A DNA stretch of 27,678 nucleotides from a virus, in IMG/VR virus record IMGVR_UViG_3300027917_000153, positions 1-27,678 of that record, one strand, 5' to 3'. A program made the position numbers and the translations under genes. Within the stretch, counting starts at the first letter, position 1, and the number at the start of each line of letters is the position of its first letter. Below are positions 6,725-27,678 of the stretch, piece by piece. The notes beneath the pieces were generated by a model. That model was not told where the DNA came from. It did not search any database and worked only from the letters and a program-made list of their open reading frames with translations.

Positions 6725-7843
6725 CTAGTTGGCAACCACCTGCGGGAACTTGAGCCCCTGGTCGACCCGGTTGTTGACCGCACCGAGCGAAGCCTCGGCC
6801 ACCGGGATGAAGTTCGACAGCAGGGCGTCCGCATCGTTGGCCGATGCGTCACCGCTGTAGAGCTCGATCTTTCGGACCGATGCGATGTTGATGACCGCCA
6901 TGCCGATGTCCTCCCAGGCCTGGAAGGTGATCATGTTGGCGACCTTGTCGATGTAGAACTTCGTTTGGTTCAGGATGTAGAACTTCCCGAAGAACTCCGG
7001 CGACGTGAAGAAGTAGATGTTGCCCGGACGGAGGATGTCCGTCTTGACCGTGCGGATGTACGGACGGCCGAGCAAGGTGTTGTACTTGTAGCCGTCGACC
7101 GTGGTCTCCGACTGGATGCGGTCGCCATTGTCCTCCACGGTCCAGCCCAGGATGTCATCCCAGTCCGGCTCGGTGATGAGGAAGCGCTCCGCACGCAGGC
7201 GGTTCCGGTCGAGCAGCTTGAAGCCCTCCTTGATGTCGACACGCTGCAGAGGACGCACCGTGGCATCGTCTGCACCGGCGGTACGGGCGAGCTCACCCTT
7301 GCGGATGGAGAACTCTACGGCGGTACCCGCATCGACGCTGGTCCAGTTGAGGTTCGTGACAACACCACCATTGGCTTCCTGCTGGAGAGCCTGGCAGGCC
7401 GCTTCGATGTGGATCACGAACTCTCGGTCCTCGATCTCCTGAATGTCCTTCACCGAGTTCTCTTCGATGATCTTGGTGATGGGCATTTCGTAGGCCAGGA
7501 GCTCCTGCTCCGGCTTCTGGAAGATCTCCGAAGAGATGGTGAAGAAGCCGACCTCCGCACGAGGACCACGGATGAAACGTGCCGTGGGCTTACCTCGGAA
7601 AGAGATGGCCATGGCCCGACTCTTCGGCTCCACGTCCACGATCTTCACGAGAGTGTCGTGCCTGGTCGACCGCTGGCAGTCGGTGCGCGTGACCTGCTCC
7701 GGCGGAAGGATCTTCCGCACGAAGCTGACCTCACGCAGCTTGTCGCGGATGTAAGACCCGCCGAGCTGCGCCAGCTTCTCCTTGCCTCCCGGCTCGCTGA
7801 GCCGAGTATTGAACAGCGCGTTGAAACGAGCGCCCGATGCCAT
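6725..7843 (-). CDS. Major capsid protein (HK97-fold type)
   Basis: 372 aa, the expected size. The N-terminal third has the usual order: a helical start, then SYIRDKLREVSFVRKILPPEQ, which corresponds to the helix leading into the E-loop region. A long spine helix region (EQELLAYEMPITKIIEENSVKDIQEIEDREF, EAACQALQQEAN) follows. Near the C-terminus, FFGKFYILNQTKFYIDKV, then MITFQAWEDIGMAVINIASVRKIEL, is the P-domain pattern seen in many major capsid proteins. A strong AAGGAG lies 8 bases before the ATG. The gene is set off by 66 bases upstream and 107 bases downstream with a hairpin terminator, unlike its tightly packed neighbours, which fits high, separate expression. Decoration and scaffold-like genes lie directly upstream in the same operon. 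Confidence 0.88.
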   Translation of the reverse strand: MASGARFNALFNTRLSEPGGKEKLAQLGGSYIRDKLREVSFVRKILPPEQVTRTDCQRSTRHDTLVKIVDVEPKSRAMAISFRGKPTARFIRGPRAEVGFFTISSEIFQKPEQELLAYEMPITKIIEENSVKDIQEIEDREFVIHIEAACQALQQEANGGVVTNLNWTSVDAGTAVEFSIRKGELARTAGADDATVRPLQRVDIKEGFKLLDRNRLRAERFLITEPDWDDILGWTVEDNGDRIQSETTVDGYKYNTLLGRPYIRTVKTDILRPGNIYFFTSPEFFGKFYILNQTKFYIDKVANMITFQAWEDIGMAVINIASVRKIELYSGDASANDADALLSNFIPVAEASLGAVNNRVDQGLKFPQVVAN

Positions 7844-8437: not shown

Positions 8438-8475
8438 GTGATTACTCTCCTTCTACCGTTTCTTGTTTGCCGGGA

Positions 8476-8862
8476 TTAGCCGACACTTCCGTTGATGAAC
8501 CGCGCGAACTCACTGGAAGCGTCGCCTCCAGCTGACCCATCGTCCTCGCTGATGAAGGCGCCCTTCATCATGTCCGGCCCCGTCATGTCGAGGGCCAGCT
8601 TGATCTGCTCCAGCCTTCCGGCCGCAGCTTCCTTCTCGAGGTACTCGGACAGGGTATCGAACGGAACCTCCGTACGGACACCCTTGGAGTGCATTTCTGC
8701 TGCCACCTTCTCCGCTTCCATGCGGCGGAGCAGTGCAGTGTTCTGCTCCTGGAGGCTGGCCACCTTCTCTCGATAGGTGTCCCGCTCGTGCGCGATCTTC
8801 TTCAGAGTCGCTGCACTGTCGGCAGCTAGCTGTGCGATCTTGTTCATGTCCAGCTTCGCCAT
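8476..8862 (-). CDS. Small coiled-coil protein, scaffold-like
   Basis: 128 aa. Residues about 10-60 form a continuous charged helix (ATLKKIAHERDTYREKVASL, then NTALLRRMEAEKVAAEMHSKG), consistent with a coiled coil, followed by an acidic short helical domain (FDTLSEYLEKEAAAGRLEQIKLALD) and a Gly/Asp-rich tail. GGAGG lies 6 bases before the ATG. A small helical protein just before the decoration and capsid genes is the classic place for a scaffold or assembly chaperone, but no family signature confirms this. It has related tripeptides (KIA, KVA) but not Lys-Thr-Ala. Confidence 0.82.
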   Translation of the reverse strand: MAKLDMNKIAQLAADSAATLKKIAHERDTYREKVASLQEQNTALLRRMEAEKVAAEMHSKGVRTEVPFDTLSEYLEKEAAAGRLEQIKLALDMTGPDMMKGAFISEDDGSAGGDASSEFARFINGSVG

Positions 8863-8874
8863 TCCGTCCTCCGA

Positions 8875-11115
8875 TTACATCCCACCGGCGCCGCCGCCGG
8901 CGGCATTGAAACCACTGGCCTGCGAGGGCGTGGTAGCCAGACCCTGAGAGCGCTTCTCCTTCTTGTCCTTCCCGCCCATTTCTTCGGCGAGCTTGGAGAG
9001 GATGGCGCGAGCTGCCGCTACCCGAGTGATGGACGAGATCTTGGCACCGGCAGAGTCCGTGTGCTCCACAGTCTCATCGAGAACCTTGTCGGTGCCGCTC
9101 GTCTGAGCCGGCTCGGTCAGAACATCACCAAGGTCCGACTTGGGGTCCGACTTGGCGTCACGCTTGGTGTAGTTGATGGCCGACTCGTTGGAGCTCAGCA
9201 TCCTCCGCTTCTGTGCGCTGACGTCACTCGGCTCGCTTGGGACCTCTTGTCCCGCCGGCGCTGCACCGGAAGGAGCCTGGGGGCCTACGGCGTCAGCCTT
9301 GCCGGCGCTGATCTGAGCAGGGTTGATGGCGTCCTCGGCCTGCTTGTAGAGACCGAGCACCATGAGGTTGCGGGCCGACAGTCGCGCCGAGGCGGCCTTG
9401 GCAGCTTCCATATCCTCGGGGGGTGCCTCTTCGCCGCCCTCGCCCCTGCCCATCAAGGCCTTGGCGCCTCGATAGGCACCGTAACCTAGACCGGCCAAAC
9501 CAGCCGCCGCCCCCGCTCCGAGGCCTACGCGACCGAGAGTGGACTTCGGAAGGTGACTGAGCAGTCCCTTGGCTGCTGCCACTTCTGCCGGTGCCGCATG
9601 CTCTGCAGCTGCGGCCGCCGGGGCAGCACCCAGTCCCTGGAGAGTGGCGCCGACGGACTCGAGCTTGGGGGCTCCTCGACCGACACCGAACTCCGCCATG
9701 TTGGGGGGCGCCAGGTAGGGAACCGTGGCTGGGCCCGTCTCTGACATCAACGTCTGCGCAAGATCGCTGGCCGGCATCTTCGGCAGAGCCGGAGGACGCT
9801 GACCCGGCGCACCACGGAAGAAGGCTCCGCCCGATGGAGGTGCCATGCCGGCCGCTTCGTAGACCGCGTCTGGCGGTGGGCCGATGAAGTCCGCAAGCTT
9901 CCTGACCGACGCAGTCTTGGGCTCCTGCGCCGCCCTTGCCTGCCCGCCGGCTCGAGCGCGCTGGAACCCAGAGTAGGCTCCCTTCGCCGCACCGGCCGTG
10001 CCTCCAGCTAGGGCGCCACCGGCGCTACCTACTCCTGCACCTGCCATACCGGCGAGCCCCGCACCAATGGCGGCCCCAGGAAGGCCACCGGTCAGACCAC
10101 CGATACCTGCTCCGACCAAACTGCCCAGTGCGCCGCCACCCACGCCACCAGCAAGACCACCCTTGACCGCACCAGCAGCGCCACCATAGGCACCGCCGCC
10201 AGTGGTAGAGCCAACGTAGGAGCCAAGATCGGAAGCGCCAAAGGCCTGCTTCACGAGCTCGTTGGCCGGCTCGAGATAGAGTTGACCGTTACGCGCCTGC
10301 GCCACCTTGACCAGACCCATGCTGATCAGGTTGTTCACGTAGGCCGACGAGGTCTTCTCGTTGGAAATGGGCTCCACGGGCTGCTCCCCGTGCATCATCG
10401 AGATGTTGGTCTCCATGGAACCACCTGGGTCGCCCTTCTGCCCAGGAAGCTTCTGAGTCGCCGGCGCCATCGGGGGCTTGTGGTGAGCCTCACCCGTCTG
10501 GTTGGCGTCGATGTTGTCCTCGGTGGGCAGCTTGCCCTTGTTGGTCTCGAGGGCGTTCGGACCCTGCCCCGGCCCCATATCCGTCGTTTCCTCGGCGATC
10601 TTGGGGTTGAGTGAGCGCGCAACGTAGTCCAGTGCGCTTGCCAGCTTGTCGATGTACTCGGTGGGGATCTCGTACTGCTGCTGGGCAGACGCAGTCTTGG
10701 TCGTACCCGGCAGTACGGCGCCGGTCTCGGCAACCTGTCGGGCACTTTCGAGGCTGAGGTCGACCTTCGCCGCACTCGCCTCCATCGCGGTCTTGATGAA
10801 GTCGTGCAGGGTGGGTCGGGGCATAGCCGTGGTCGTCATGAAGGTCTCCAGTTGGGCCGTCTTAGGAAGAAACTCCGTGCCGAGAGGTGCCATCGATTTC
10901 TGCTGCGACTGACCTGCATCCGGCGTCGGGGGTGTTCCCGTGTTCACTCGGGAAAATGTCTGTCGTCCAGCCAGACCCTTCGGGCCCCGTTGGCCCGGGG
11001 GTGGCTTGTTCTCGAATGCCGTCTGAGGGATGGGAGCCGTGGCAGCAGGAGCGGTCGACGGGTCCGGAAGACCCGATCCCATCGATGCTCCTGCCTTGGT
11101 GAACCATCTCTCCAC
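8875..11115 (-). CDS. Large internal/scaffold-like virion protein with glycine zipper
   Basis: 746 aa. The start is GTG at 11115, chosen because GGAGAG lies 2 bases upstream; a Met 11 codons inside is an alternative. The N-terminal 300 residues are Pro/Gly/Thr-rich and look disordered, with short helices. Residues about 298-382 are a long glycine-zipper, nearly free of charge, and could span or fuse with a membrane. A second small zipper (LGAGAAAGLAGLGYGAYRG) lies near 530-550. Lys-Thr-Ala occurs four times (PKTAQL, IKTAME, TKTASA, PKTASV), plus one KTS variant, the highest count in the window. Such a repeat of short linear motifs in a disordered protein between protease and capsid genes fits a protein processed during head maturation (inference). 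Confidence 0.85.
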   Translation of the reverse strand: MERWFTKAGASMGSGLPDPSTAPAATAPIPQTAFENKPPPGQRGPKGLAGRQTFSRVNTGTPPTPDAGQSQQKSMAPLGTEFLPKTAQLETFMTTTAMPRPTLHDFIKTAMEASAAKVDLSLESARQVAETGAVLPGTTKTASAQQQYEIPTEYIDKLASALDYVARSLNPKIAEETTDMGPGQGPNALETNKGKLPTEDNIDANQTGEAHHKPPMAPATQKLPGQKGDPGGSMETNISMMHGEQPVEPISNEKTSSAYVNNLISMGLVKVAQARNGQLYLEPANELVKQAFGASDLGSYVGSTTGGGAYGGAAGAVKGGLAGGVGGGALGSLVGAGIGGLTGGLPGAAIGAGLAGMAGAGVGSAGGALAGGTAGAAKGAYSGFQRARAGGQARAAQEPKTASVRKLADFIGPPPDAVYEAAGMAPPSGGAFFRGAPGQRPPALPKMPASDLAQTLMSETGPATVPYLAPPNMAEFGVGRGAPKLESVGATLQGLGAAPAAAAAEHAAPAEVAAAKGLLSHLPKSTLGRVGLGAGAAAGLAGLGYGAYRGAKALMGRGEGGEEAPPEDMEAAKAASARLSARNLMVLGLYKQAEDAINPAQISAGKADAVGPQAPSGAAPAGQEVPSEPSDVSAQKRRMLSSNESAINYTKRDAKSDPKSDLGDVLTEPAQTSGTDKVLDETVEHTDSAGAKISSITRVAAARAILSKLAEEMGGKDKKEKRSQGLATTPSQASGFNAAGGGAGGM

Positions 11116-11130
11116 GTCTCTCCACTCAGA

Positions 11131-11919
11131 TCAGCTGAAGACCTGATTCCAGTCGACCGGGTACCCAGCAGCCTCGAGGAACTCGAGACCACGAACGTTC
11201 ACGGCAGCGTCGTAGTCACCTGCGACCTGCGCAACCTTGGTCTGCTCACGGCTGGGGCCACCCAGCACGAGCACCGCGCTGATCTTCTGGACCGCTTCCT
11301 CGACGTTGATGCCGGAGGCCTGAGCGATCTTCACCGCGTGTTCTGCCGCTACCTGGTCGAAGGCGCTGGCTTCCTTCTCGCCCTCCGACTCCTTCTTCTG
11401 GAACTTGGCCTTCAATCCGCTCATCACGTTCTTGGGGTTTGCAGCGTGGGCGGCAGCCATGCCCTTGGCCTTCAGGCGGTCCTTGAGGGAGGCCTCCTCT
11501 TCGGCCTTCTTCTCGATCTCGCCGGACTCGTTCCAGAACGCATGCGCCATGGTGCGGCCGAGGAAGTCGGCTTCGGCAACCTTCTGCTGCCATTCGTGCA
11601 TCTGCGCGACCTCGCGACGCGCCGCGGCTTCCTTCTTCTCTTCTTCCTTGCCCTCTTCCTCTTCGCCCTCCTCCTTCTCCTTGGACTCCGCCTTCTCGTG
11701 CTCGGGGGTCTCTCCCTCTTCGTCCTCGGCGAGCTTGGAGATGAACTGGCTGTAGAGGTAGTTCTGCTGCTCCGGGTTGAGCTGGGAGAGATCGATGCCC
11801 TCGGCCGCCGCCGTCTTGGCGAAGAGCTCGAGGCTGGCGATCTTCATCTGCTCCTCTTGGACGGCCTGGCCGTACCCGAGAGTGTTGTACATCGCAGCGA
11901 GGTGGGGATTCATGCTCAT
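11131..11919 (-). CDS. Acidic/charged helical protein, scaffold-like
   Basis: 262 aa. The ATG at 11919 has GGAGAAG 8 bases upstream, preferred over an in-frame start 24 codons earlier. After a short N-terminus with MKIASLELFAKTAAAEG (one Lys-Thr-Ala), LSQLNPEQQNYLYSQFISKL forms a helix, then residues about 72-110 are almost entirely Glu and Lys. The remainder is helical and Ala-rich. Highly charged, low-complexity, helix-rich proteins placed between protease and capsid genes are typical of prohead core or scaffold proteins; that is the best guess, without a family match. The 85-bp gap before the gene is longer than usual here and contains a small hairpin. Confidence 0.85.
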   Translation of the reverse strand: MSMNPHLAAMYNTLGYGQAVQEEQMKIASLELFAKTAAAEGIDLSQLNPEQQNYLYSQFISKLAEDEEGETPEHEKAESKEKEEGEEEEGKEEEKKEAAARREVAQMHEWQQKVAEADFLGRTMAHAFWNESGEIEKKAEEEASLKDRLKAKGMAAAHAANPKNVMSGLKAKFQKKESEGEKEASAFDQVAAEHAVKIAQASGINVEEAVQKISAVLVLGGPSREQTKVAQVAGDYDAAVNVRGLEFLEAAGYPVDWNQVFS

Positions 11920-11970
11920 GGCTGGTTCTTCTCCGAAGATGTGTGGTGAGTTCTGGTGTCCACGTTTCCT

Positions 11971-15207: not shown

Positions 15208-15912
15208 ATGGGAAGAAATGCGTTGCTCACCGTTGCCGAGGTAGCGGAGATCCTGGAGATTACCCCTACATCGGTTCGAGCGTTGACGCGAAAGGGGCTG
15301 CTTCGTCCGCACCACCCTGCGGGAAGACCCCTAGACGCCGCCATGTTGTACCGTCCGGCGGAGGTGGACGCGTACCAAACGGCGAGAAACAACGTAGTCA
15401 AGATCGACCTGGTCACAGCCTACAACAAAGCCCTCAAAGTAGAGGTCATGCTCTACGCACTCGAGCAGCGGCTGGCACAAGTAGAGCTGATCTCTGGAAT
15501 AGATGTTCCCAAGATTCCCTACAATGAGACGGCCGTCCGCTCTCTGGTGTCTCAAGTACAGGAGGCAGCAGAGCATCCACCTACAGACGCCCAGGAGGTC
15601 ATGAAGTGGGCTGGGGTATTTCTAGCGCTGCACGAAGAGTTCTTCGACCTGGTGGAGCGGTATACCAGTCACCCCAAGCCATGGGAGCCCTTCTACCTAC
15701 TAGGGCGCGCAATCCGAGAAGCGCAGCCGGTGGAGGGCATGGACCTCCCCCACGAACAGGCTTATCACTACTTCAACGCGGCCTACATTGTTCTGCGTCA
15801 GAGCATGACTCTGTATATCCACCACCGATACGGGCGTAAGAGAGTGAAGCAGGAGTTTCCAGAAGAGGCAGACCTCTTCCTAGAACGCGTCTTCCGCTTT
15901 CTACCCCGCTAG
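15208..15912 (+). CDS. Helix-turn-helix protein: candidate small terminase or regulator
   Basis: 234 aa on the strand opposite to its neighbours. Residues about 7-50 are a MerR/excisionase-like winged helix: LLTVAEVAEILEITPTSVRALTRKG, then a wing and YRPAEVDAYQ. The remaining 180 residues are helical with many Leu, Tyr and His and no known domain. Small terminases such as lambda Nu1 have a similar N-terminal fold, and TerL lies immediately alongside, but on the opposite strand. The stop overlaps the TerL stop on the palindrome CTAG (15909-15912). There is no clear ribosome site before the ATG; a TTG five codons in has GGAAG 7 bases upstream. TAATAT at 15189-15194 resembles a -10 box, without a matching -35. 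A transcription regulator is the main alternative. Confidence 0.82.
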   Translation: MGRNALLTVAEVAEILEITPTSVRALTRKGLLRPHHPAGRPLDAAMLYRPAEVDAYQTARNNVVKIDLVTAYNKALKVEVMLYALEQRLAQVELISGIDVPKIPYNETAVRSLVSQVQEAAEHPPTDAQEVMKWAGVFLALHEEFFDLVERYTSHPKPWEPFYLLGRAIREAQPVEGMDLPHEQAYHYFNAAYIVLRQSMTLYIHHRYGRKRVKQEFPEEADLFLERVFRFLPR

Positions 15913-17717
15913 CCCTGCCAAATGGGGCCCCTCCATCCACTCATGGGGGTGCCGTCCTTGTCCTCCTTACCCGGGATGAGGATGTCGGGACGCTGAATCC
16001 TCAACATGGAGACAATCCAAGCGTAGAGGAACGAATGGAAGCTGTCGTCTGGGTTACCAGGCGTATGGTCGTATACCAGCATCCGCAGGTTCTCGTTGTA
16101 CTCCGAGTAGATGTTCAAGAAGTCCTGCGCGAAAGGCTCCCTAAACTCCTCCCAGGGCGGGAACTCACACTTCTTGCCTTTGATGGCATCGAAGATGGCG
16201 CTCATCACCTCAGTGCGGTGGAGCTGCCAGCGTTGGAGCTGGTTGTTGTAGCGGATCTTCGTGTTCATCCGGGCCATGTACTGGAACTGGTGCACGCGGT
16301 CCCGGCCAAAGGCGCGCACCAACCGACTGTTCATACCGAAGCCGAACCCGTGATCCGCCCCGATCAGGTTAACGTTGAAGTGCTGACAGATCTCGATGAT
16401 TCTCGCTATCTGCACTTCTGGGTCCGCTTCCTCACCTTGGAAACGGTGCATGAACAGAACGCGAAACTTGGTGTCGATGTATGTGGCGATGGTGAGAATG
16501 GTGTAGGCGTTGTCGCCAGTACCCCAGTCCACCCCAGCAAAGAACGGTTGTGCCAAAGAACGAGGTCTGTACTCCTCGAACTTTGCCATGCTGTACTTAT
16601 CGGGCGTAACGCAGCACTCTCGTATCTGAGAAGACGTCAGAGGGCGTAGGCCCGACTCGAAACTGATCCCCAGGCACTCATTGTAGAAGCGGCTGCGAGA
16701 ATGGTGTTCATAGTCGTACAGCACCTCATACCAGTTTTTGATTTTCCAGGGGACCATCAACTGGGGGATGCGGTAGCTCTCCCACGGCACGCGTATACGA
16801 TCTGGATCTGGCTGGACCATCCAGGCCCATTGGGACCTCGGGCCCTGAGGGTTGATCAACTTCCCGCACTTCTCGCAGATCGGTCCCTTCTTCCCGATAT
16901 TCTTTTCGCCGAGGACGTTCCAGTGATTGCAGCCCTCGCAGGGCACGACCCATTCACCTTGAGTGGAACGATTCGCCCTGTAGTCTTCGATGATGTTGTC
17001 CAGGCTCTTCGGCGTGCCTGCGTAGACGTACCCCTTCCAGCGGTCATGAGCATGAGAGAGGCAGTGCTCGATAACCGGGATGTTGTCCTTGAGAACGTCC
17101 TGAATTTCGTCGATCAGTAGCTTCCACGCTGGGATGCCTCGAGTCCGGTCTGCGTTGAGGTACGCGTAGCGGAGCGTGATCTTGCTGCGGTTGATGAACT
17201 GCTTCTCCAAGATGTTCTGACTGAGCATCTGGGTCGTGAACCGCTTTAGGATGGGACTCGTTTCGATGGCCTCTTTGATGCGGTCGTTGGAAAAAGTCTT
17301 GGTCTGCGTAGCAGACGGACTAACGTAGAGGATACGCATGGACGGGACCAGGCTCATGTAGCAGAGCGCTAGGTTTCCAATCAGCGTGCTCTTCTCTACC
17401 TGTCGACCGCAGCACAGCAGAACTCTCCTAGCCGGGGTGTCATAGGGGCGGTACAGATGCTCCCTACCCACGAAGGAGAAAGGGGAGTAGGCAGCCCCCT
17501 CCCCCGAATCGTTCGGCATGTAGAACACCTTGGAGACGAACTGGGAAGGGGTGACGGCCACCACCTTGGGCACCTTCTCGCGAGCGACCCGTAGAAGTAT
17601 CGGGTCTTCTCGGAGTTGAGGTTCTGGCATCCATCTCTTATCCTCGTACCAAGTGTCGTCCCACTCGTCGTCTTCCAGCGGTAGCTCGGGTTCCAAGGAT
17701 GCTGCTGCAGAAACCAT
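15909..17717 (-). CDS. terL: Terminase large subunit (DNA packaging ATPase-nuclease)
   Basis: 602 aa from the ATG at 17717; a GTG 26 codons upstream (17795) is open but has no ribosome site and runs antisense to a plausible gene. The protein pumps DNA into the prohead and cuts concatemers. ATPase domain: Walker A CCGRQVEKST (102-111, a variant with Gln-Val-Glu before Lys-Ser), Walker B KLLIDE (199-204), coupling motif YAGT (232-235). Between the domains, CEGC (260-263) and CEKC (281-284) form a likely zinc-binding insert. Nuclease domain of RNase H type: GVDWG with D397, GADHG with D455, and PDDSFH with D557/D558 and H561. Length is normal. It follows two unknown genes that may be packaging partners, and has no Lys-Thr-Ala motif. 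Confidence 0.95.
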   Translation of the reverse strand: MVSAAASLEPELPLEDDEWDDTWYEDKRWMPEPQLREDPILLRVAREKVPKVVAVTPSQFVSKVFYMPNDSGEGAAYSPFSFVGREHLYRPYDTPARRVLLCCGRQVEKSTLIGNLALCYMSLVPSMRILYVSPSATQTKTFSNDRIKEAIETSPILKRFTTQMLSQNILEKQFINRSKITLRYAYLNADRTRGIPAWKLLIDEIQDVLKDNIPVIEHCLSHAHDRWKGYVYAGTPKSLDNIIEDYRANRSTQGEWVVPCEGCNHWNVLGEKNIGKKGPICEKCGKLINPQGPRSQWAWMVQPDPDRIRVPWESYRIPQLMVPWKIKNWYEVLYDYEHHSRSRFYNECLGISFESGLRPLTSSQIRECCVTPDKYSMAKFEEYRPRSLAQPFFAGVDWGTGDNAYTILTIATYIDTKFRVLFMHRFQGEEADPEVQIARIIEICQHFNVNLIGADHGFGFGMNSRLVRAFGRDRVHQFQYMARMNTKIRYNNQLQRWQLHRTEVMSAIFDAIKGKKCEFPPWEEFREPFAQDFLNIYSEYNENLRMLVYDHTPGNPDDSFHSFLYAWIVSMLRIQRPDILIPGKEDKDGTPMSGWRGPIWQG

Positions 17718-18072
17718 GATCGAACCTACCGACGATCTAGTAGAGGCGATCAAGAGGACGTGGGCCCTCCTGAACTCCGCTGGGGAGAACTTCACAGGCG
17801 AGTGGCGGCACTGGCAGGTGCCGGGAGGAGACCGCTTCGCGCTTCAAATCGGGGTCCCCCTACTGTCTGGGTACAAGAGCGCCATCAATCGGTTGATCAA
17901 AGGGTGCCTCCGCTCCTGTCACTTCAAAGCGCTGGATTTCAGATACTATCCAAACCGTCTGGAGTTCACGGTTATCCCCGCGCCTATCCCAGACAAGCCT
18001 CGTCCAAAGTCAGAAGGAACTTGTCCAGATACGCCAGCGGGTCCAGCAGGTGGTCGTACCCCTGAGCCTTGA
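17716..18072 (+). CDS. Small protein on the opposite strand, unknown function
   Basis: 118 aa from the ATG at 17716. Amino acid make-up looks like a real globular protein up to about residue 90 (EAIKRTWALLNSAGENFTGEW, GGDRFALQIGVPLLSGYKSA, then FKALDFRYYPNRLEFTVIPAPIPD), and it fills a 266-base gap between TerL and the upstream minus-strand gene that otherwise has no gene. The last 29 codons run antisense to the 3' end of the 152-aa gene and look like low-value coding. Its start codon overlaps the TerL start codon head to head (CATG at 17715-17718). No strong ribosome site is present. I do not recognise it. It could also be antisense noise. Confidence 0.55.
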   Translation: MIEPTDDLVEAIKRTWALLNSAGENFTGEWRHWQVPGGDRFALQIGVPLLSGYKSAINRLIKGCLRSCHFKALDFRYYPNRLEFTVIPAPIPDKPRPKSEGTCPDTPAGPAGGRTPEP

Positions 18073-18442
18073 ACCACCAGGAGGCAAGCTCCTCGGTGTA
18101 CTTGGCCATGAGACGCGGAGGTCCTGCCTCGAAGTACTCCTGCGCACAACTGTCTAGAACCGACGGAAAAGTGTGGAGCCACCAGTCTCGGTACTTGTAG
18201 GCGTCAGCCTCTGAGATACCGGTGGGCAAGAAGAAGTGAACGATCAGGTCCCTGTCCTTCATGCTGAACTCAGCCCTGAAGCTCTTGTAGTTCTTGACTG
18301 TGAACTCCATGGGCTTGGGCGCTATCGGGTCCCCATCTGCCAGGAACGCGTCCCTAACATCCCCCTGGCTAGAGCCCTCCCCTACCTCCCTTACCTTGAC
18401 GGACCGTTCATTCGACGTTGTGGTCAGCGATTGGTTGGACAT
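17984..18442 (-). CDS. Unknown protein upstream of the terminase
   Basis: 152 aa. After a Ser/Thr-rich N-terminus it has FTVKNYKSFRAEFSMKDRDL, a VHFFLPTGISEADAYKYRDWW segment and a helical C-terminal half with several Trp and Tyr (ELASWWFKAQGYDHLLDPLAYLDKFLL). GGGAGG lies 10 bases before the ATG. The start overlaps the end of the 307-aa gene by 35 bases, suggesting coupled translation. Position directly upstream of TerL makes a packaging accessory or small terminase role possible, but there is no helix-turn-helix and the family is not recognised. Confidence 0.8.
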   Translation of the reverse strand: MSNQSLTTTSNERSVKVREVGEGSSQGDVRDAFLADGDPIAPKPMEFTVKNYKSFRAEFSMKDRDLIVHFFLPTGISEADAYKYRDWWLHTFPSVLDSCAQEYFEAGPPRLMAKYTEELASWWFKAQGYDHLLDPLAYLDKFLLTLDEACLG

Positions 18443-19331
18443 CTACCGTGTGCCTCCCGTCTGTGAGCTCGTGAATGTATGGCACCTGCCGCTGGTCGTT
18501 GTCGAGCATCAGGTTCATCAGATTGCGCTGCAGATCCTCACTAGGGGCCCCAATAGACTCTAGCAACTCATTCACGTTCTTGGCCGAGGTAGTGAAATCC
18601 AGCGCCTGCCTAGAGGCCATGGGCCCTTGATCCAGCCCCGCCTCCGCCGACCGAATGATGAACGTGTCCCGGACGCGTGCGAGCAGAGAAGGCAGGTCTA
18701 TGGGGTCTGGCATGTGGTTATGCCGAATCTGGTTCATCACGCTGGCGAATGAAGAGACTTGGGAGCTCGCGGCTACGAACCTAGGGTCGTCGTAGGCTGC
18801 CCGCTTCATAGCCTTGTGGCGCATGACGCTGATCAAATCGTCCCCATCCATCAGCATGGAGTCCACGCGCATCTGCAGAAGAACCCGTAGCTCAGATCGA
18901 TCCACCAGCTCCAGATTCCAGAAGTAGAAGTAGTACCTCTTGAGCTCCTTCTCCGTGAGGGTGATTCCCATTCCCTTCAAACGGTGAAGAACGTAGCTGG
19001 TGGGGTCCTCACAGATCGTCATGGACTCTAGTAGCTCTTTGGCCCGTGGCTTTTTCAGGAGAGCAACCGCTGCCTTCATCGCCGCATCTGGGTGGAAGAT
19101 GTTGTACAGCCCTTCGCTAACGAGAAAGCGGAAGGTGGGAGAGTGCCTCTTGTCGTAGGGTCGAAAAATGGGCGGCTTACGGATACGGTTCTGCAACTTC
19201 TGAACTGGTATGTCCCCGGGGTAGTCGAGCTGATGCTCCCGCAGGATGAGCTGAATGTCCCGCAGGGAATAGCCGTCAGGATGAACTAGCAAGTACTTCA
19301 AGTAGTACTCACACGGAGTCCTCCGAATCAT
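18408..19331 (-). CDS. Helical protein of the packaging block, function unknown
   Basis: 307 aa. The N-terminus (YYLKYLLVHPDGYSLRDIQLILREHQLDYPG) has the look of a winged-helix or helical DNA-binding fold, and the middle is helical with FWNLELVDRSELRVLLQMRVDSML. The C-terminal third (ASRQALDFTTSAKNVNELLESIGAP) is also helical. No family recognised. Only a weak ribosome site precedes the ATG at 19331. It starts the minus-strand block that leads to TerL, just beyond the plus-strand island, so it may be transcribed from a promoter in that island; a TTGACT with a poor -10 lies there but is not convincing. A small terminase or packaging-associated DNA-binding protein is one guess. Confidence 0.8.
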   Translation of the reverse strand: MIRRTPCEYYLKYLLVHPDGYSLRDIQLILREHQLDYPGDIPVQKLQNRIRKPPIFRPYDKRHSPTFRFLVSEGLYNIFHPDAAMKAAVALLKKPRAKELLESMTICEDPTSYVLHRLKGMGITLTEKELKRYYFYFWNLELVDRSELRVLLQMRVDSMLMDGDDLISVMRHKAMKRAAYDDPRFVAASSQVSSFASVMNQIRHNHMPDPIDLPSLLARVRDTFIIRSAEAGLDQGPMASRQALDFTTSAKNVNELLESIGAPSEDLQRNLMNLMLDNDQRQVPYIHELTDGRHTVDVQPIADHNVE

Positions 19332-20262: not shown

Positions 20263-22920
20263 TTACGCTCCCTGGAACGCTAGAATCTTCAGGCCCTCGA
20301 TCGTCTCTTCGGTAGAACGAATCGCACGCTCCAAAGAAGACTGAGGGATATTCTGCAGGCCCAGACGTGCAGCAAGAAGGAGCTCACAAAGCTTGCTCTG
20401 CGCGTCCTCGATGTCCGGCAGGTAGCTCACGAACGTCAGGATGTTCTCGGGGTTGATGAAGCCCAAGCTGAGAACCGTGTCGACGATCGAGGGGTCGGGG
20501 AAGTTGGCCGCCTCCTTGAGCATGTGCGGAGTCTTGAGCTGTGGGAACCGAGACAAGAAGGCTTCCGCCTTTGCGCTTGCCTCCTTCTGCAGCTCGCTCT
20601 TGAGCCCGATGGCTCGACCCGTCTTGATGCTAATCGGAGCGTCCGAGTAGGCCGCGTGCGCCAGCTTCTCAGCCCCATAACCCTGGTGGGTTCCCAGGCC
20701 GCTCAGCAGGAACATCGCGTCGTCTACGTCGAGATCTTGCTTCTGGTCTCGAGCAAGCTTCTCGACCGGCACTCCGGAGAACGAGAAGAGTTGCCCGTCG
20801 GAGCGGACCACGACGTGGCTCTCTTTCTCCTCCATCTCCTCTGGCGTCTCGGTCTCGACTGCAGCCTCCCCACCCACGAGACCTACGGCCTGGGAGTTAG
20901 TAAGCGGCAGCCAGGACCAGCCTTCGGGAACCAGGACGCGGCCATCCGGCGTCGACATCACGGTCTTGATGTTTGGCTGGAGGCTGACCTCTACCGGAGT
21001 TCCGTCGAAGGTCTCACCGTTGAAGACGCCAGGCTCTCCGGGCATCGAGAAGGAGCCTCCGAGCTCGAAGGGGATGGTCATCTGAACCTTCCCCTCGGCA
21101 TCCACGGTGTAGAAGGCACCATGGCCACCCACCTTGCCGCTGGGGAGGTTTCCACCTGCGCCGGCAGGCTCGCCCAGGATATCTGCCTGGACTGCGCTCA
21201 CCGTGCCGTTGGTGAAGAGCTGCAGTGGCAGTGGCTTCCCGTCCGTATCCAGGAGGTTCGGTACTACGAAGCCTACGTGCTCCCGCCCGAGCTCGTCTCG
21301 CACCTTGTAGAGTCCGAAGTCCGAGATGGGACGGAGGTCCGTCTTGGTGTCGCCGCCCTCGGCCGTGGCATCCTCCGCCAGAGTCACCGCTCCGTTCATG
21401 TCGACGTCAGCAGCGATCTTCACCCCGAACCGCTCGACCACCTCACCACGACTGATGAGGGCGCTCTTGGGATCCCAGAGCAGATGGCTCGCCTCCTTGA
21501 CGATGTAGCCACCCGGAACGTGTTGGATCTGCACAACCGTGGGGCGCACGAGCCCCTCCCAGGACGCCTCCTTCAGAAGAGGGGCAGGCTCCGCGTCTAC
21601 GATCCTGAAAGCCGCGTCGAAGATGGTCTCTCGGTTCGCGTAGATGTCAGCAGCGCACTTCTCTACCTCTAGACAGAAGTTCGCATGATCCGTACGGTTG
21701 ATAGTCGGCAGGATGGCCTGAAGGATGGAGGCGGTCTTCTTTTCGGCCATCGCCTTGTCTACATAGGCATTCCTGGCCAGCTCTTTTTGCCTGAGCTCAC
21801 GGATCTTACCGCTACCCGGAGCGAGGACATTCCGAATGTCGAACGCACTCTTCTCTTCCTCCGGACCGATGTTGGGGTGCGGGCGGCCCCACTTCTTCTC
21901 GTCCCACTCCACACCAGGACCACCATAGTCCTTCTGCATAGCACTCTCGAACGCGAGGTTGTGCTCAAGAGCATCCGGCGGAGAGTACGATGCAACATCA
22001 GCAGCATGCGTGGGGTCTAGCTGGTACTGCTCCGTAAGAGCCTCCACAACCCCCGGTGCGTGGCTGTATGCGGCGGGCTTCGGCTTGGGGGAGAACCAAC
22101 CCGCCTCCTTACGAGCCTCTTCATCCTCTGATGTAGCAAGCAGCACCTTGGACCCCCAGTGCTTTTTCGCCGCATTCATCTGTGAGAGAAAATCGTCTCC
22201 GCCCTTGTAGAAGTCGGACAGAACATCCTTGTGTATAGATACGACGTCGCCGTTTGGCAGCTTGTGGTGGGCGAAGTCCTCGTGCTTCATCCCACTGGGA
22301 CCCCCTGTTAGTACTACGGTAGCCGCTTCCTTAGCCTTCTCGTCCTTCTCCACGTACTCCTCGAGCGCGGAGCCCATCTTCCCGATGCCCATACCGCCGC
22401 CGGCGTTGAACGCCATGCCACCACCACCGAACCCGTAGTTCTGACGGTACGGGGGATAGAGCTGCCCGATCATCGACTGATCGCCAGGAGTGCGGCTGGT
22501 AACGTCGAAGGCCTGTGGGCGGAAGATGGCCTGGCGCAGCCGGTTCTCCGTCAACGGCAGCACCCTAGAGCTGTCGGTGACCAGGAGATCGAAGGGGCTG
22601 AGCTTCGACTGCTTGATCACGAACGGGATGCGAACAGTGCGAACGCCCGTTGCCTCGAGCGCTTGAGGGTCCGTCTCGTTGGGCGCCTCAGTCTGGTTCT
22701 GGATCTCGATGTGCCCAATACCGTACCCCTGCTCGGCATCGACCTTCTGCATCTCTACATGGGGCTGGAAGTCAGAGATGTAGGGGACCTGCTTGTACAG
22801 CTCCTGCAGGATCTCCTGCGGCCACTGGTTGGGGTCCTCGGGAAGGTCCACCTCGCCGGCAGTCTTCTCCAAGGCCTCGAGAACTTCTGGTTCGAAGAAG
22901 AGCGGCTCGGTCATGGTCAT
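20263..22920 (-). CDS. Large probable virion protein with many Lys-x-Ala motifs, function unknown
   Basis: 885 aa. The N-terminal 170 residues include IGHIEIQNQTEAP, VRTVRIPFVIKQSKLSPFDLLV, PLTENRLRQAIFRPQAFD and a Gly-rich segment (FGGGGMAFNAGGGMGIG, about 160-175). A middle part (about 180-390) is charged and helical. A beta-rich region (about 480-690: DFGLYKVRDELGREHVGFVV, FYTVDAEGKVQMTIPFELGG) follows, then a helical end. Lys-Thr-Ala occurs twice (LEKTAGE, KKTASIL) and related KEA, KLA and KIA tripeptides many times. The ATG at 22920 overlaps the upstream stop as ATGA; a Met two codons later is possible. It lies after the baseplate spike genes, so a tail or baseplate role is likely, but the shared motif also ties it to the head proteins. 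No family recognised. Confidence 0.85.
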   Translation of the reverse strand: MTMTEPLFFEPEVLEALEKTAGEVDLPEDPNQWPQEILQELYKQVPYISDFQPHVEMQKVDAEQGYGIGHIEIQNQTEAPNETDPQALEATGVRTVRIPFVIKQSKLSPFDLLVTDSSRVLPLTENRLRQAIFRPQAFDVTSRTPGDQSMIGQLYPPYRQNYGFGGGGMAFNAGGGMGIGKMGSALEEYVEKDEKAKEAATVVLTGGPSGMKHEDFAHHKLPNGDVVSIHKDVLSDFYKGGDDFLSQMNAAKKHWGSKVLLATSEDEEARKEAGWFSPKPKPAAYSHAPGVVEALTEQYQLDPTHAADVASYSPPDALEHNLAFESAMQKDYGGPGVEWDEKKWGRPHPNIGPEEEKSAFDIRNVLAPGSGKIRELRQKELARNAYVDKAMAEKKTASILQAILPTINRTDHANFCLEVEKCAADIYANRETIFDAAFRIVDAEPAPLLKEASWEGLVRPTVVQIQHVPGGYIVKEASHLLWDPKSALISRGEVVERFGVKIAADVDMNGAVTLAEDATAEGGDTKTDLRPISDFGLYKVRDELGREHVGFVVPNLLDTDGKPLPLQLFTNGTVSAVQADILGEPAGAGGNLPSGKVGGHGAFYTVDAEGKVQMTIPFELGGSFSMPGEPGVFNGETFDGTPVEVSLQPNIKTVMSTPDGRVLVPEGWSWLPLTNSQAVGLVGGEAAVETETPEEMEEKESHVVVRSDGQLFSFSGVPVEKLARDQKQDLDVDDAMFLLSGLGTHQGYGAEKLAHAAYSDAPISIKTGRAIGLKSELQKEASAKAEAFLSRFPQLKTPHMLKEAANFPDPSIVDTVLSLGFINPENILTFVSYLPDIEDAQSKLCELLLAARLGLQNIPQSSLERAIRSTEETIEGLKILAFQGA

Positions 22921-23549
22921 ACGCTGATTATGGCGAAAAGTGAGGCGCTAACGGAAGGGATGCTAGAAAGAAGAACGAGTCCGGCCACCTGCTCGGTCGG
23001 CAGAATTTGGTTGGGAGCGTCGTAAAGACCCCCGCCGAACAGAGACTGAATCTGCCCACCCGTTGTTGCCAGGGTGTCCCCAGAGAAGGAGAAAGCGAAC
23101 GCAGGGCCTGCATTGAGAGCAGCGGTGAGATCCGCCAGCGCTTTCAGCGCAGGTATCTTGATGGCCAGAGCGGCCTTGATGGCTGCGTTGATAAGCCCCA
23201 GTTGTACCGACAGGGTACCTGCCAGAGCCGCTGCCGCAGAGAGCTCGGCTCCTAGAGTGATACTAGGAAGCTGTAGCGCAAGGGCGGCCTGGAGAGCCGC
23301 TTGTAGTTGCCCTATCGCCGCCAGGAAGATCTTGATGTTGGCAAGAGGGTCGGAGATCTGCAGAGACAGTGTAGCCTGGGCGGCCAAAGAGGCGTTCAGG
23401 TTGGCTGCTAGATCGGCCATGAAGGGGCCCAGGCCTATAGAGATCAGAGCGTCTATCTGGATGCTGAGTGGGGCCAAAAAGGCTGCGGCCGCCGACAACC
23501 CCACGTTGAAGTTGCCTAGAGTTCCTGAAACAGGCGTGCTGAGAGGCAT
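22917..23549 (-). CDS. Arginine-free, Ala/Leu-rich protein of the baseplate block
   Basis: 210 aa, made mostly of Ala, Leu, Ile, Ser, Gly and Gln. I count four Lys, two Glu, about six Asp and no Arg. The pattern is amphipathic: repeated hydrophobic helices such as LAAIGQLQAALQAALALQLP, and LGLINAAIKAALAIKIPALKAL. Only the last third has aromatic residues. It starts 2 bases after the spike gene stop and overlaps the 885-aa gene by 4 bases, so it belongs to the tail/baseplate operon. Such proteins could form coiled coils, line a channel or interact with the membrane during DNA entry; this is inference. It has no Lys-Thr-Ala. Confidence 0.82.
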   Translation of the reverse strand: MPLSTPVSGTLGNFNVGLSAAAAFLAPLSIQIDALISIGLGPFMADLAANLNASLAAQATLSLQISDPLANIKIFLAAIGQLQAALQAALALQLPSITLGAELSAAAALAGTLSVQLGLINAAIKAALAIKIPALKALADLTAALNAGPAFAFSFSGDTLATTGGQIQSLFGGGLYDAPNQILPTEQVAGLVLLSSIPSVSASLFAIISV

Positions 23550-23551: not shown

Positions 23552-24757
23552 CTACGCCAATACCGTTGGGTTACCACTAGCCACCAACCCCTGCATCACA
23601 GCACCGGAGGTGATGGTACCGGGCTTGCCGTCTACGATGATCGGCACGGGGGCTGCAATGATGACGTTCACAGTAGACCCTACGGTGGCCACCGGCTTAC
23701 TCCCACCGTTGATACGTACCACGCCCTTCTCTGCAGAGATATCGAGGCCGTTCTTCGCCCGTAGCGCTATTTTCTTCTCGCTGGCGATGGTGACCACTCC
23801 CTTGCAGCCAATGGACATGTCGTCGTCCAGATCCAGCTGAAGCTTCTTCTTGATGCGGATGCCAACCTTGCCCTCCGCACGCAGGAAGGCTCCTCCCTCT
23901 CGAGTGAAGAGCAGCTTCAGCTTAGTACCTGCCTGGGCAGAGGCGTCCACTGTACCAGTTCCTGCGTCGTAGCCTCCTGGGGCAATCGCAATCTCTACTG
24001 CGATGGGCTTCCCATCCAGAACCTCGTTGTAGAGGGATAGGCTCCCAGCGTCACCGGCTGGTTCTGGTGTGGGCTGATGCACCTTCCCTACCGCCAAGCG
24101 CACATCTGCCTTCTCGTCATTGGCGTAGAGGCGAAAGGTCTGGATGAACTCCGTCTCCGGGTTGTCGTCAGTGCTGCTCGAGGCGATGCCCCACTTGATA
24201 GAACCGCCAGTGTTGTGGTGCTCGTACTGCTGGCTGATGTCGGTGATGACGTTCTGGAGCGGTATGTAAATCCGTTTCGCCACGGGAGTGGCGCCAATCT
24301 CCAGAACTCCACCACGATGCAACACTATGAACTGACCATCCCTACCCCGAAGTGCGATGTCCCCAGACTTCGCTCTTCGACGACCACCAGCGAACCCGCT
24401 GCCCTTGTAGGCATCGGTTGTCTGATCCTCGGCCGGCATGATGAACGCCAGTACGAATGGTGGTGGACCGTCGCTCGGTATACAGACTAGGCACTTCGCG
24501 TTCACCTCGGGCATCGCGTAGATGCCCTCTCCGTGGTTCGGGTGTAGATACGGAGAGGCGACCTGGATGTCGAAGTAGCTCTTGTTGTCGAACTGGGTCT
24601 GAACGTCTACCGTCCAGTTCACGAAGTTCACATCCAGAATCCTGGCCTCGTGAATGTACGCAGCGCTTCCCCCCTCAGACTGAAACCAACCACCGTGTCG
24701 TTGGCTGGCTTGCCCAAGAGGCTCGAAGTACCGGTCGTTTACATTCTTCAGCGGCAT
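23552..24757 (-). CDS. Baseplate spike/hub protein, gpV/gp5-like
   Basis: 401 aa. Residues about 35-110 (EARILDVNFVNWTVDVQTQF, then YLHPNHGEGIYAMPEVNAKCLV, then CIPSDGPPPFVLAFIMPAE) read as the OB-fold of phage spike proteins, which sits at the tail tip. GDIALRGRDGQFIVLHRGGVLEIG follows the OB-fold in many such proteins. Residues about 305-360 repeat short strands (KLQLDLDDDMSIGCKGVVTI, then ASEKKIALRAKNGLDISA) as in the trimeric beta-helix needle. The C-terminus is Val/Gly/Ile-rich and resembles a capping segment. The start ATG (24757) shares a base with the beta-prime stop (TGATG). This predicts a long-tailed phage, but does not decide between contractile and non-contractile. Confidence 0.75.
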   Translation of the reverse strand: MPLKNVNDRYFEPLGQASQRHGGWFQSEGGSAAYIHEARILDVNFVNWTVDVQTQFDNKSYFDIQVASPYLHPNHGEGIYAMPEVNAKCLVCIPSDGPPPFVLAFIMPAEDQTTDAYKGSGFAGGRRRAKSGDIALRGRDGQFIVLHRGGVLEIGATPVAKRIYIPLQNVITDISQQYEHHNTGGSIKWGIASSSTDDNPETEFIQTFRLYANDEKADVRLAVGKVHQPTPEPAGDAGSLSLYNEVLDGKPIAVEIAIAPGGYDAGTGTVDASAQAGTKLKLLFTREGGAFLRAEGKVGIRIKKKLQLDLDDDMSIGCKGVVTIASEKKIALRAKNGLDISAEKGVVRINGGSKPVATVGSTVNVIIAAPVPIIVDGKPGTITSGAVMQGLVASGNPTVLA

Positions 24758-27678
24758 CAGTAATGGAACTCCGGCACGTCGTACAGATGCGGCTTCTTGC
24801 GTACGTCCTTTCGGCTCATACCAAACTCAGCCCCGTATGCAATGCCGGGGATTGGGTGAAGTCCATGCAGCTCAGATGAGGCTCCGGTCGCCGCGCCTTC
24901 TATGATGGAAGTGCGAATCTTGTTGTGATTCAGCTTCGCCATCCAATCTTCTTGGACTGCTAGCGGCATGATGTCGATACCCTTGAGTACCGGAGTGTGG
25001 AGAACTGGGCTCTTGCCCTTCTTGACCAGCTCTTTATTCATGGCTCCGACCTTCGAGGTGGACTGGAACTCTCCCTTGACGACTCGCTCCGAGTCACCGG
25101 GGTCCACCACACGCGTAAGGTTGCTCATCGCCTTCACGACGGTCTCGACGTGCTGTCTCCGTACCCCTTCTCGACCATAGATTTCGTGGAGCTCGTTGAC
25201 CATCTGATTTTGCACCGCCTCCATCTTCCCCGTCGCCTTATAGAGGTCGTGGGGGTTGATGGAAGTACGCGTTGGGTCCGACAGCACTTGACCCGGAGTC
25301 ACCATCATCCCAACTCGAGGAGGCTGCCAGGTTGCAGAAGTTCCAGGGATCAATGGCTTGATTCCTGGCATACTCGACCACAATGGATTGCCAAAGGGAT
25401 CCTTGGGAATGTGGTGCTTCACACCACCGATCCAGATATTCACGCCAGTGGGGTCGGGCTCAATACGCTCGATTTTCCCGCCCTTGGTAGCTAGCCGCGC
25501 AGCGTTGGGGATCTTTCCTGGAAGCTCAGCCAACTGAACCACTCTCTTGATGTCGTTGACCATCGTGGGTCCACGCTTGGCCACACCACCAGAATGGAAG
25601 GCTTTGAGCGTAAGTTGTGTAGCACGCTCTCCCAGCGACTGGGACGCTAGAATCCCAAGGTTCGTCCCCTTGTTGTAGTAGCCACCATTGGGGGAGATGC
25701 CAGCGCACTTCTGGCACAGCCCCTGACCGTGCTCGCACTTCAAGGCCGAACGAACCACAAGCTGCGCATTCTTGTCGGCTGCTCGGATTGTACTGATGAC
25801 ATCAGGAGTGAGGACCTGACCTCGTACGTACGTTTTGCCCTTGATGGTGACGTCCTGCTGAAGCTCCCGGTCATAGATGTCCTTCGACCCAACCGAGATA
25901 CTTACCCCTTTGGCGGTCCCACAGTCGTCGGCTGCTACAACGAGCCCCATGGAGGTGTTTACTAACCTCTTAGTGAAGTATCCCGGCGTCCGCACTTCCT
26001 GGACCTTCAGAACGGAGCCGCGACGAGCTCCGCTCATCTGCGTCCAATAGCTTCCAACATCCAGCCCCTCCGAGTAGCTCTTGGTAATTGGGGTAGGAAG
26101 TACCCTGTTCTGCGAGTCCGTTACCAACATGGGGGCAAGACGTAGCTGCTGGTACTGGTCGGGTGCGGGCTTCACTCCTGCCTGCTTCATGACGAAAAGG
26201 TTGTTCGGGTTCTTCTCCTGCCGCTTGTCGTGCACCCGATTGATGCGATCGGTGGCGTCAAACCAAGTGTGGATAACCTTACGTTCTTTGTCCACTTTGG
26301 AGAGACCGGGAGTACGGTTGATCTTGTCCACCTTCCGTTGAGCAGCGTTGACGAACCTGTCTCGCACCGCCTTGTCGGGGGTGAAGTCCGCTAGACTCAG
26401 CGAATGGGTGGGGATAGGGAGGAATTGAACGTTCTTCTTGGGGTCCTCGCCCTCCTTCTCTACTGCGTACGCAGTCCCTATTGTCGCAGGGTTCTGAATC
26501 TTCACTGCCCCGAACGACGCGTCGTAGCCTAGGCGCATCAGCTTACTGGCCGAGTTCCCGAAGTCGGGCCTGTAGACAGGATTCTTAGCGAGCTCTGTGT
26601 AGACCTCCTCAGCGCCCTTCTTATCGAAAGTGAACTTGTGATCCTCGAGCACCTTCTTGTGGAGACCGTCGGGCAGAGCACTAGCCAGCATGATGCGACC
26701 AGCTGTTGTCTTCATGCCCCCCACCTTGGCGGTGTCAGTGATGGATAGCTTGTTTGCCTGTACTGCCTTCAACAAGTCCGTAGGAGTCTTGAAAGTCTTG
26801 CCGCTGTCCCCTGTGATTCGGCTCAGTTTATACAGCCCCAGGCTAGACTCATTCGTGGGCTGGTACATGACCTTGCCACTCGCCTCATTGAAGAGGTTCT
26901 TCGAGGGCATCATCCTGAACGCCTCGTCCACTGCTTCTGGGCCCACAGGAACGTAGGCACTCATCGTGTCCCCGTCGAAGTCGGCATTGTACCCGCCAGT
27001 GACCAGCGGATGGATCTGGATGGCCTTACCAGGAACGCGTCGGGCTAGGAAGGCCTGCACACCATGCTTGTGCAAGACGGGGTCGCGCTTGAGAAGGACG
27101 GGACGCGTCTCCATCACCTGGTCCAGTGCACGATAGACGGCCTTGTCCTTCTGCCCCTTCTTCCCCAGCATACTGCGTGCTTCCAGGGCATCCTTCGCGT
27201 AGCCCATCTTCACGAGCTTGTCGGTGACGAAGGGTCGGAAGATCGTCAGAGCCTTCTCCTCCGGCAGCCCCACCTCATCCAAGCCTAGAGCCGGCTCCGG
27301 AGTGATGGTGGCGCGCATCGTCATGTCCTGCCGGCGCTTTAGCAGCGTTCCTTGAAAGAAACCCTTTTTCGGGTCAGGCCCACGCAACTGAAGCATGATG
27401 CCCTTGTCCATCTTCTTACGGTCGGACCAAGAACCTCCGATACCCATGATGGCAGAGAGCCCGTCGTACATACCGGCGCGGGCCTCCTTCATAGCGGTGT
27501 CCCCACCATACTTCTTCAGCCGCTCCGCATCCCGGAGCTTCCCATTCAACGCACCAAAGTCTTTGTAGAGCCCATTGAGGTCGGCCTCGTTGATGTCTCC
27601 ATTGGGGAGGAACCTAGCCGGACGCATCGCAGGCGGAATGATAGGAAGGTGGTTGATAACGTAAGCGTCCTTAGCAGT
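24757..27678 (-). CDS. RNA polymerase beta-prime subunit (multisubunit type), N-terminus outside window
   Basis: 973 residues are visible and the frame runs open to the right edge: the 17 codons before the first Met encode VINHLPIIPP, matching the conserved VLPVxPPDLRP of cellular beta-prime, so the true start lies beyond the window. In order: DLNGLY; FFQGTLLKRRQDM (lid/rudder region of the clamp); VLLKRDPVLHKHGVQAF; catalytic magnesium motif NADFDGD (26968-26988); PITKSYSEGLDVGSYW; bridge-helix region SGARRGSVLKVQEVRTPGYFTKRLV; the zinc site with Cys at DDCGT (25921) and CEHGQGLCQKC (25705-25737); trigger loop ASQSLGERATQLTLKAFHSGG (about 25583-25654); and the C-terminal VVDPGD. All key residues are kept in one frame. 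Beta is not in the window. It is in the tail operon, so late or virion-linked expression is possible. It has no Lys-Thr-Ala. Confidence 0.95.
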   Translation of the reverse strand, partial: TAKDAYVINHLPIIPPAMRPARFLPNGDINEADLNGLYKDFGALNGKLRDAERLKKYGGDTAMKEARAGMYDGLSAIMGIGGSWSDRKKMDKGIMLQLRGPDPKKGFFQGTLLKRRQDMTMRATITPEPALGLDEVGLPEEKALTIFRPFVTDKLVKMGYAKDALEARSMLGKKGQKDKAVYRALDQVMETRPVLLKRDPVLHKHGVQAFLARRVPGKAIQIHPLVTGGYNADFDGDTMSAYVPVGPEAVDEAFRMMPSKNLFNEASGKVMYQPTNESSLGLYKLSRITGDSGKTFKTPTDLLKAVQANKLSITDTAKVGGMKTTAGRIMLASALPDGLHKKVLEDHKFTFDKKGAEEVYTELAKNPVYRPDFGNSASKLMRLGYDASFGAVKIQNPATIGTAYAVEKEGEDPKKNVQFLPIPTHSLSLADFTPDKAVRDRFVNAAQRKVDKINRTPGLSKVDKERKVIHTWFDATDRINRVHDKRQEKNPNNLFVMKQAGVKPAPDQYQQLRLAPMLVTDSQNRVLPTPITKSYSEGLDVGSYWTQMSGARRGSVLKVQEVRTPGYFTKRLVNTSMGLVVAADDCGTAKGVSISVGSKDIYDRELQQDVTIKGKTYVRGQVLTPDVISTIRAADKNAQLVVRSALKCEHGQGLCQKCAGISPNGGYYNKGTNLGILASQSLGERATQLTLKAFHSGGVAKRGPTMVNDIKRVVQLAELPGKIPNAARLATKGGKIERIEPDPTGVNIWIGGVKHHIPKDPFGNPLWSSMPGIKPLIPGTSATWQPPRVGMMVTPGQVLSDPTRTSINPHDLYKATGKMEAVQNQMVNELHEIYGREGVRRQHVETVVKAMSNLTRVVDPGDSERVVKGEFQSTSKVGAMNKELVKKGKSPVLHTPVLKGIDIMPLAVQEDWMAKLNHNKIRTSIIEGAATGASSELHGLHPIPGIAYGAEFGMSRKDVRKKPHLYDVPEFHY

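Follow-up and report, generated by a model that had tools for sequence, protein, structure and literature searches.

Several phage RNA polymerases (RNAPs) related to the cellular enzyme have been described, and among the closest are the deep-branching RNAPs termed mReC (Weinheimer & Aylward 2020). These belong to Caudovirales, carry both a cell-like β and a cell-like β′ with the NADFDGD motif, branch deeply outside the bacteria and are encoded amid hallmark genes; in the text of that paper a fusion is reported only for crAssphage (PMC7481178). The virion and nonvirion enzymes (vRNAP and nvRNAP) of phiKZ- and AR9-like phages are also cell related and lack α, and one form is packaged in the virion. 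One-chain double-barrel enzymes are known from crAss-like phages, from YonO and from P23-45, whose RNAP is fused to the tape measure and is virion associated (PMC10770324). The crAss-like and YonO enzymes have been described as too diverged to align readily with cellular subunits (PMC7481178), whereas the phage enzymes considered here keep nearly full β and β′ domains. Among bacteria, Helicobacter and Wolbachia have natural rpoB-rpoC fusions with β N-terminal to β′; the deep phage clade considered here is separate from these bacterial genes and lacks the first β′ zinc ribbon. Tethered E. coli β-β′ assembles into a functional polymerase and the Helicobacter fusion is natural (PMC1750930), which makes the function of a single chain plausible.

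The stretch of DNA analyzed here (the window) is a viral record of 27,678 bases, which is a genome fragment. A minus-strand frame of 973 codons runs without a stop from its right edge (27678), where it is still open, to a TGA at 24757-24759, and no base shuffle of the segment 24757-27678 was stop free (0/2000). The frame matches the Pfam domains RNA_pol_Rpb1_2 (5e-24) and Rpb1_5 (1e-23), and its top PDB match is the β′ of Thermus aquaticus (6e-99, two stretches, residues 7-941). Because residue 7 aligns with residue 222 of that β′, about 215 N-terminal residues of a normal β′ are missing from the window. The AlphaFold2 (AF2) model (pLDDT, 83; pTM, 0.80) matched bacterial β′ in Foldseek (E, 5e-61; TM, 0.72-0.75) and in a VIA comparison (Z, 28-31; mostly 750-876 residues aligned). 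The initial annotation had placed NADFDGD, the trigger loop, the bridge helix and a four-Cys zinc site in one frame, and all four are confirmed there (Table 1); the zinc site corresponds to the second β′ zinc site of bacteria. Of the catalytic aspartates, D233 and D235 occur in every one of the 94 family rows, and D237 in 93 of them; the lone exception has Asn and is expected to be contig L005, whose catalytic motif borders on an intein junction. By its motifs, Rpb1 domains 2 and 5 and predicted fold, the frame can be assigned to the β′ of a bacterial-type double-psi-barrel DNA-directed RNAP.

Table 1. Features of the window around the RNAP frame
Feature	Position	Strand	Basis
RNA polymerase β′ part, last 973 residues, gene truncated 5′ at the window edge	24757..27678	-	Pfam, PDB, AF2
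Catalytic Mg-binding motif YNADFDGDTMS	26959..26991	-	Sequence motif
Bridge helix YWTQMSGARRGSVLKVQEVRTPGYFTKRLVN	25957..26049	-	Sequence; model helices 541-563 and 567-576
Four-Cys zinc site C586, C648, C655, C658 (25915-25929, 25705-25740)	25705..25929	-	
Trigger loop GERATQLTLKAFHSGGVAKRGPTMVNDIKRVVQL	25531..25632	-	Sequence motif
TGATG stop/start overlap, RNAP/spike gene	24755..24759	-	Sequence
Baseplate spike-like protein	23552..24757	-	Weak DUF2345, under Pfam cut-off
Conserved 210-aa protein, RNAP cluster	22917..23549	-	Synteny
Conserved 885-aa protein, RNAP cluster	20263..22920	-	Synteny
Conserved 307-aa protein, RNAP cluster	18408..19331	-	Synteny
Conserved 152-aa protein, RNAP cluster	17984..18442	-	Synteny
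Terminase large subunit, GpA type	15909..17795	-	PF05876; phrog_675
Major head protein candidate	6725..7843	-	phrog_2522, E 4.5e-10

An exact-match search found no contig that prolongs the window rightward, and the question of where β lies was answered through relatives. Single- and two-sequence queries gave one or two of these; broader alignments were used instead, and the widened search yielded 93 distinct IMG/VR contigs, a few of them near-identical. The sister contig L002, 75% identical to the window, encodes one ORF of 2174 aa with Rpb2_3 and Rpb2_6 (1.3e-61) followed by Rpb1_1, Rpb1_2 and Rpb1_5. A complete single β+β′ ORF is present in 78 of the 93 contigs, and L070 and L074 have one likewise if TGA is read as sense, so that about 80 encode both subunits in one ORF of ~2,000-2,200 aa. 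Six contigs end within the RNAP ORF. The other seven are split, or seemingly so: β is fused to the N-terminal part of β′, and the C-terminal part is a separate gene of ~620-647 aa where found, lying 1-4 kb downstream in L095-L098 and far off in L017; it was not located in L018 and L093. The fusion is common to contigs with as little as 26-30% identity to the window, and a contig of a Deltaproteobacteria MAG (L108) carries a fused ORF of 2167 aa. Each record has one Rpb1_5-bearing gene, including records of 186-210 kb, the window itself being only a fragment. The stand-alone β′ gene of the initial annotation is thus not borne out: in relatives, β is fused in frame upstream, within the same ORF. 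Judged by these relatives, the window frame almost certainly encodes the C-terminal part of a β-β′ fusion of ~2,150 aa, in which β would be encoded by the window's own gene. We consider it probable that the window encodes the β′ half of a compact bacterial-type RNAP whose β and β′ form one polypeptide, and that this enzyme is packaged in the virion and transcribes early genes.

The frame lies in a cluster of phage structural genes and overlaps the baseplate spike gene, as had been noted from the sequence. Translational coupling of the two genes had also been claimed; the TGATG overlap is real, and the coupling itself is plausible because stop/start overlaps of the type TAATG/TGATG recur in L002, L012 and L013. 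In most relatives examined RNAP is followed by the spike gene, and close relatives keep the order portal, intervening genes, RNAP, spike, the 210-, 885-, 307- and 152-aa proteins and the terminase large subunit (TerL). The portal gene is also upstream of RNAP in the deep members L087 and L089, in the Salmonella phage Arash and in the Vibrio phage D69. Of 39 records, 35 have a GpA-type TerL (PF05876), as do Arash and D69, while the TerL profile PF03237 matched 11 of the 39, mostly weakly. The T4 Gp23 capsid family (PF07068) was detected in none of the 39 records and neither of the two isolates; the same search gave matches above the cut-off for RHph_TM30 and Carin-5, phages with stand-alone β′ genes placed among replication genes. 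Within the minus-strand cluster, the window has a lone plus-strand gene (15208-15912) with a DNA-binding/excisionase-like N terminus, and a similar gene of L002 (21059-21760) is likewise opposite its neighbors. Also on the opposite strand in L002, between portal and RNAP (2055-4822), an AAA ATPase is beside a DUF2201 putative metallopeptidase/VWA protein.

The RNAP might be one already described as mReC. This is a question of naming and novelty rather than a rival to the mechanism, and the evidence leaves it evenly balanced. Like mReC, the window lineage combines β and β′ (β being known through relatives) in a tailed-phage contig with a deep branch outside bacteria, and metagenome 3300017989, the source of the fused contig L079, also yielded two published representatives of mReC. 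However, a fusion in these phages is not part of the mReC paper's text, the Gp23-type major capsid protein (MCP) reported there (8/97 contigs; PMC7481178) was not found here, and the phages with a fused RNAP have a GpA-type TerL, whereas the TerL reported for mReC is PF03237. On the strength of the shared metagenome, the fused clade likely overlaps mReC, at least in part.

The cultured relatives of the window link this RNAP to the phage particle. Arash (OQ632216) and the Vibrio phages D69, D148 and D181 share the RNAP clade, the portal-adjacent RNAP and the GpA-type TerL. They differ in that β′ is split after the catalytic barrel, into ~1,525 aa of β+β′N and ~606 aa of β′C. In Arash, Gp206 (1525 aa) consists of Rpb2_3, Rpb2_6, Rpb1_1 and Rpb1_2, and Gp216 (606 aa) of Rpb1_5. 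Arash is thus a distant relative (about 30% identity) with the split architecture, which weakens its virion evidence as a guide to the window phage. The D69 RNAP is arranged in the same way, and D148 and D181 match D69 closely. These chains are annotated as 'subunit beta' or hypothetical, and the passages of the Arash paper considered here do not mention a β-β′N fusion (PMC10585845). The initial annotation had called for proteomics of polymerase in virions, and published data provide this for Arash: Gp206 was the top protein of all in virion mass spectrometry, with 3516 spectra, compared with 1333 for the MCP, 1210 for Gp216 and 467 for the sigma factor Gp10 (PMC10585845). Since the enzyme is the top-detected protein of purified Arash particles, we suggest that it probably travels in the particle and is injected to initiate transcription of the viral genes, and by analogy the RNAP of the window phage may do the same. 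A role as virion protein would explain why its gene lies in the virion and packaging cluster. The RNAP would be made late in infection and packaged into the particle, would enter the next host alongside the DNA and would there transcribe the early genes, in some members together with a phage-encoded sigma-like factor.

It is also possible that the enzyme is a nonvirion RNAP for middle and late genes, like the phiKZ nvRNAP, with its presence in Arash particles due to carry-over and its gene location due to late expression. The Arash authors raised both early transcription and enzyme carry-over, many enzymes are among the 116 particle proteins (PMC10585845), and the one RNAP of each record might transcribe genes of every class. 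However, Gp206 tops the spectra, above the capsid protein, and is accompanied by Gp216 and the sigma factor (PMC10585845). Moreover, RNAP comes after the portal in most of the lineages tested, the deepest among them, whereas the β′ genes of RHph_TM30 and Carin-5 are among replication genes. We therefore regard a nonvirion role as unlikely, and a virion-packaged, α-less and usually single-chain RNAP as the most likely reading of the window enzyme.

No α domain scored above the cut-off in any of 41 records, while the search was positive in 13 of 14 control genomes. The missing α is presumably explained by the covalent β-β′ fusion, which would take over from the α scaffold the role of holding β to β′. 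Sigma70 region 2 was found in 14 of the 41 records; it was not detected in the other 27, which include the closest relatives and many fragments. For the window phage, an early-gene role, the use of sigma and independence from α are what we infer; the fused RNAP may nevertheless recruit the host α.

The β′ tree (59 rows, LG+C20, NCLDV-like outgroup, Arash and D69 included) places the window as sister to L002 (100/99), in one clade of fused and split phage enzymes (98/95). The bacterial clade (97/99) contains no phage enzymes. Both its position in this tree and its GpA-type TerL assign the window to the fused β-β′ clade, and by sequence the fused phage RNAPs form a deep clade of their own outside all sampled bacteria. 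The β′ had been described as closer to cellular enzymes than the usually split and more diverged phiKZ/AR9 type; it is indeed unsplit, readily alignable and cell-like, but it is not near the cellular enzymes by descent, being outside the bacterial clade. The split members, including Arash and D69, form one clade (100/99) nested within the fused clade; the β/β′ fusion has therefore been kept in the whole clade, and on the simplest reading the β′ break is a derived state. The derived subclade, which includes Arash and Vibrio D69, D148 and D181, keeps the β/β′N fusion and breaks β′ after the catalytic domain.

Membership of the RNAP in the multi-polypeptide phiKZ/AR9 family, as a divergent branch, is very improbable. 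A topology uniting the fused clade and the phiKZ-like row was not rejected (AU p = 0.16), and one subclade breaks β′ after the catalytic domain, like phiKZ-type and cyanobacterial enzymes (PMC7598289). The best tree lacks this join, and the window enzyme is not nested with the phiKZ-like row, although, that row being incomplete and very long, the tree is weak either way. Phage cores of the phiKZ type consist of at least four or five polypeptides (PMC7598289), with β and β′ split and two sets per genome, whereas β′ is in one frame in the window and the fused clade has mostly one chain and one set in the relatives; moreover, phiKZ/AR9-like matches cover only 14-28% of the query. A single origin of all phage RNAPs was neither supported nor rejected (AU p = 0.27), and a concatenated β+β′ tree, in which Carin-5/YerA41 has a very long branch and falls close to the fused clade, was not relied on. 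Least credible of all is recent capture of a host rpoBC, for example from a lineage with a natural fusion such as Helicobacter or Wolbachia, since despite the bacterial-type fold the bacterial clade excludes the phage enzymes, which are 25-33% identical to bacterial rpoC, and the fusion extends to distant contigs in which GpA terminase prevails.

Our search, which covered few of the subscription journals, found no paper describing fused β-β′ in such phages. Deep-branching phage RNAPs (mReC), packaged phage RNAPs and highly diverged one-chain RNAPs are already known; we found no description of a large phage lineage in which a near-complete, cell-like β-β′ fusion is the norm, of its intein load, or of a link between a fused RNAP and the top virion protein of an isolate. 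Tentatively, these may be widespread, largely overlooked large tailed phages with a single-polypeptide, α-free bacterial-type RNAP that is among the major virion components and branched off before the known bacteria, the two-chain RNAP of the Arash type being a secondary split. If true, that split runs opposite to the view that the many pieces of phage RNAPs are an ancestral condition. Cells rely on α to assemble their RNAP, and a natural single-chain enzyme that keeps nearly the whole set of bacterial β and β′ domains would show how small an α-free RNAP can be and could serve as a handy one-gene tool. In addition, the fused clade offers deep-branching sequences for the study of RNAP evolution, and once Arash Gp206 is read as a β-β′N fusion instead of the 'subunit beta' of its description, virion RNAP becomes open to testing in a cultured system other than phiKZ.

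The anatomy of the fusion was derived from an alignment of 10 phage enzymes against Acinetobacter RpoB and RpoC. In all 10, β passes into β′ with almost no linker; the L002 junction 'INVDKKGHNIQLMPMTNAQVLAMSSGEVKDP' covers the end of β (RpoB 'INIE') and the start of β′ (RpoC 'ASPEMIKSWSHGEVKKP'). The first β′ zinc ribbon (RpoC 62-93) is absent from all 10. The first ~15 RpoC residues and the large inserts of β and β′ are missing as well. The second zinc site is kept by most members; its cysteines are gone in L016, L068, L092 and the split L095, L097 and L098, which are some of the deep or split members. A model of the L002 β plus junction (pLDDT, 84) matches bacterial β (E, 2.5e-69).

In-frame inserts of roughly 300-500 aa lengthen several RNAP ORFs, and LAGLIDADG and/or intein-splicing domains were found by Pfam in five of seven such ORFs tested; the inserts of L016 and L017 had no Pfam match, though their ends look intein-like. 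The insert sites include 'GYNFEDG' and 'GDK..GRHGNK' in β and NADFDGD, the zinc site and the trigger loop in β′. L015 (5273-15385) has three intein-like inserts in one RNAP ORF of 3371 aa, and L072 (2346-13133) has four in an ORF of 3596 aa, recognized by position and ends and not by Pfam; in these two ORFs the inserts interrupt catalytic motifs of both β and β′, the trigger loop and zinc site among them. Inteins at the catalytic site and up to four inserts per ORF suggest repeated invasion of the most conserved RNAP motifs. In L005 (~10709-11947), the intein is at NADFDG (extein NADFDGN/C...WD/TMSV), so that the third catalytic Asp is right next to the splice junction. The Vibrio phages D148 (OZ196545) and D181 (OZ196140), of ~144-150 kb, have a homing endonuclease ORF inside the RNAP gene region, which in D69 is a single ORF of 1527 aa.

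Some database records proved not to be phage relatives. 'Acinetobacter phage MD-2021a' and Salmonella WGS records were rejected as ordinary bacterial rpoB-rpoC; the INPHARED entries of the former (CAKLQH020000005 and CAKLQF020000005) carry rpoB-rpoC with chromosomal neighbors and are likely mislabeled bacterial contigs. Unannotated Staphylococcus, Listeria and Enterococcus phage records, suspected to contain bacterial rpoB-rpoC, were left out as well. The breaks in the RNAP genes of L070 (3300000172_000001, 4578-10589) and L074 (3300035698_022190, 4599-10583) were found to be several in-frame TGA codons, and frameshifts were rejected as their cause. Some of these codons are where relatives have Trp, and the ORFs would be 2024 and 2019 aa with TGA as sense. 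These phages appear to recode TGA, and a tmRNA gene is present in both loci.
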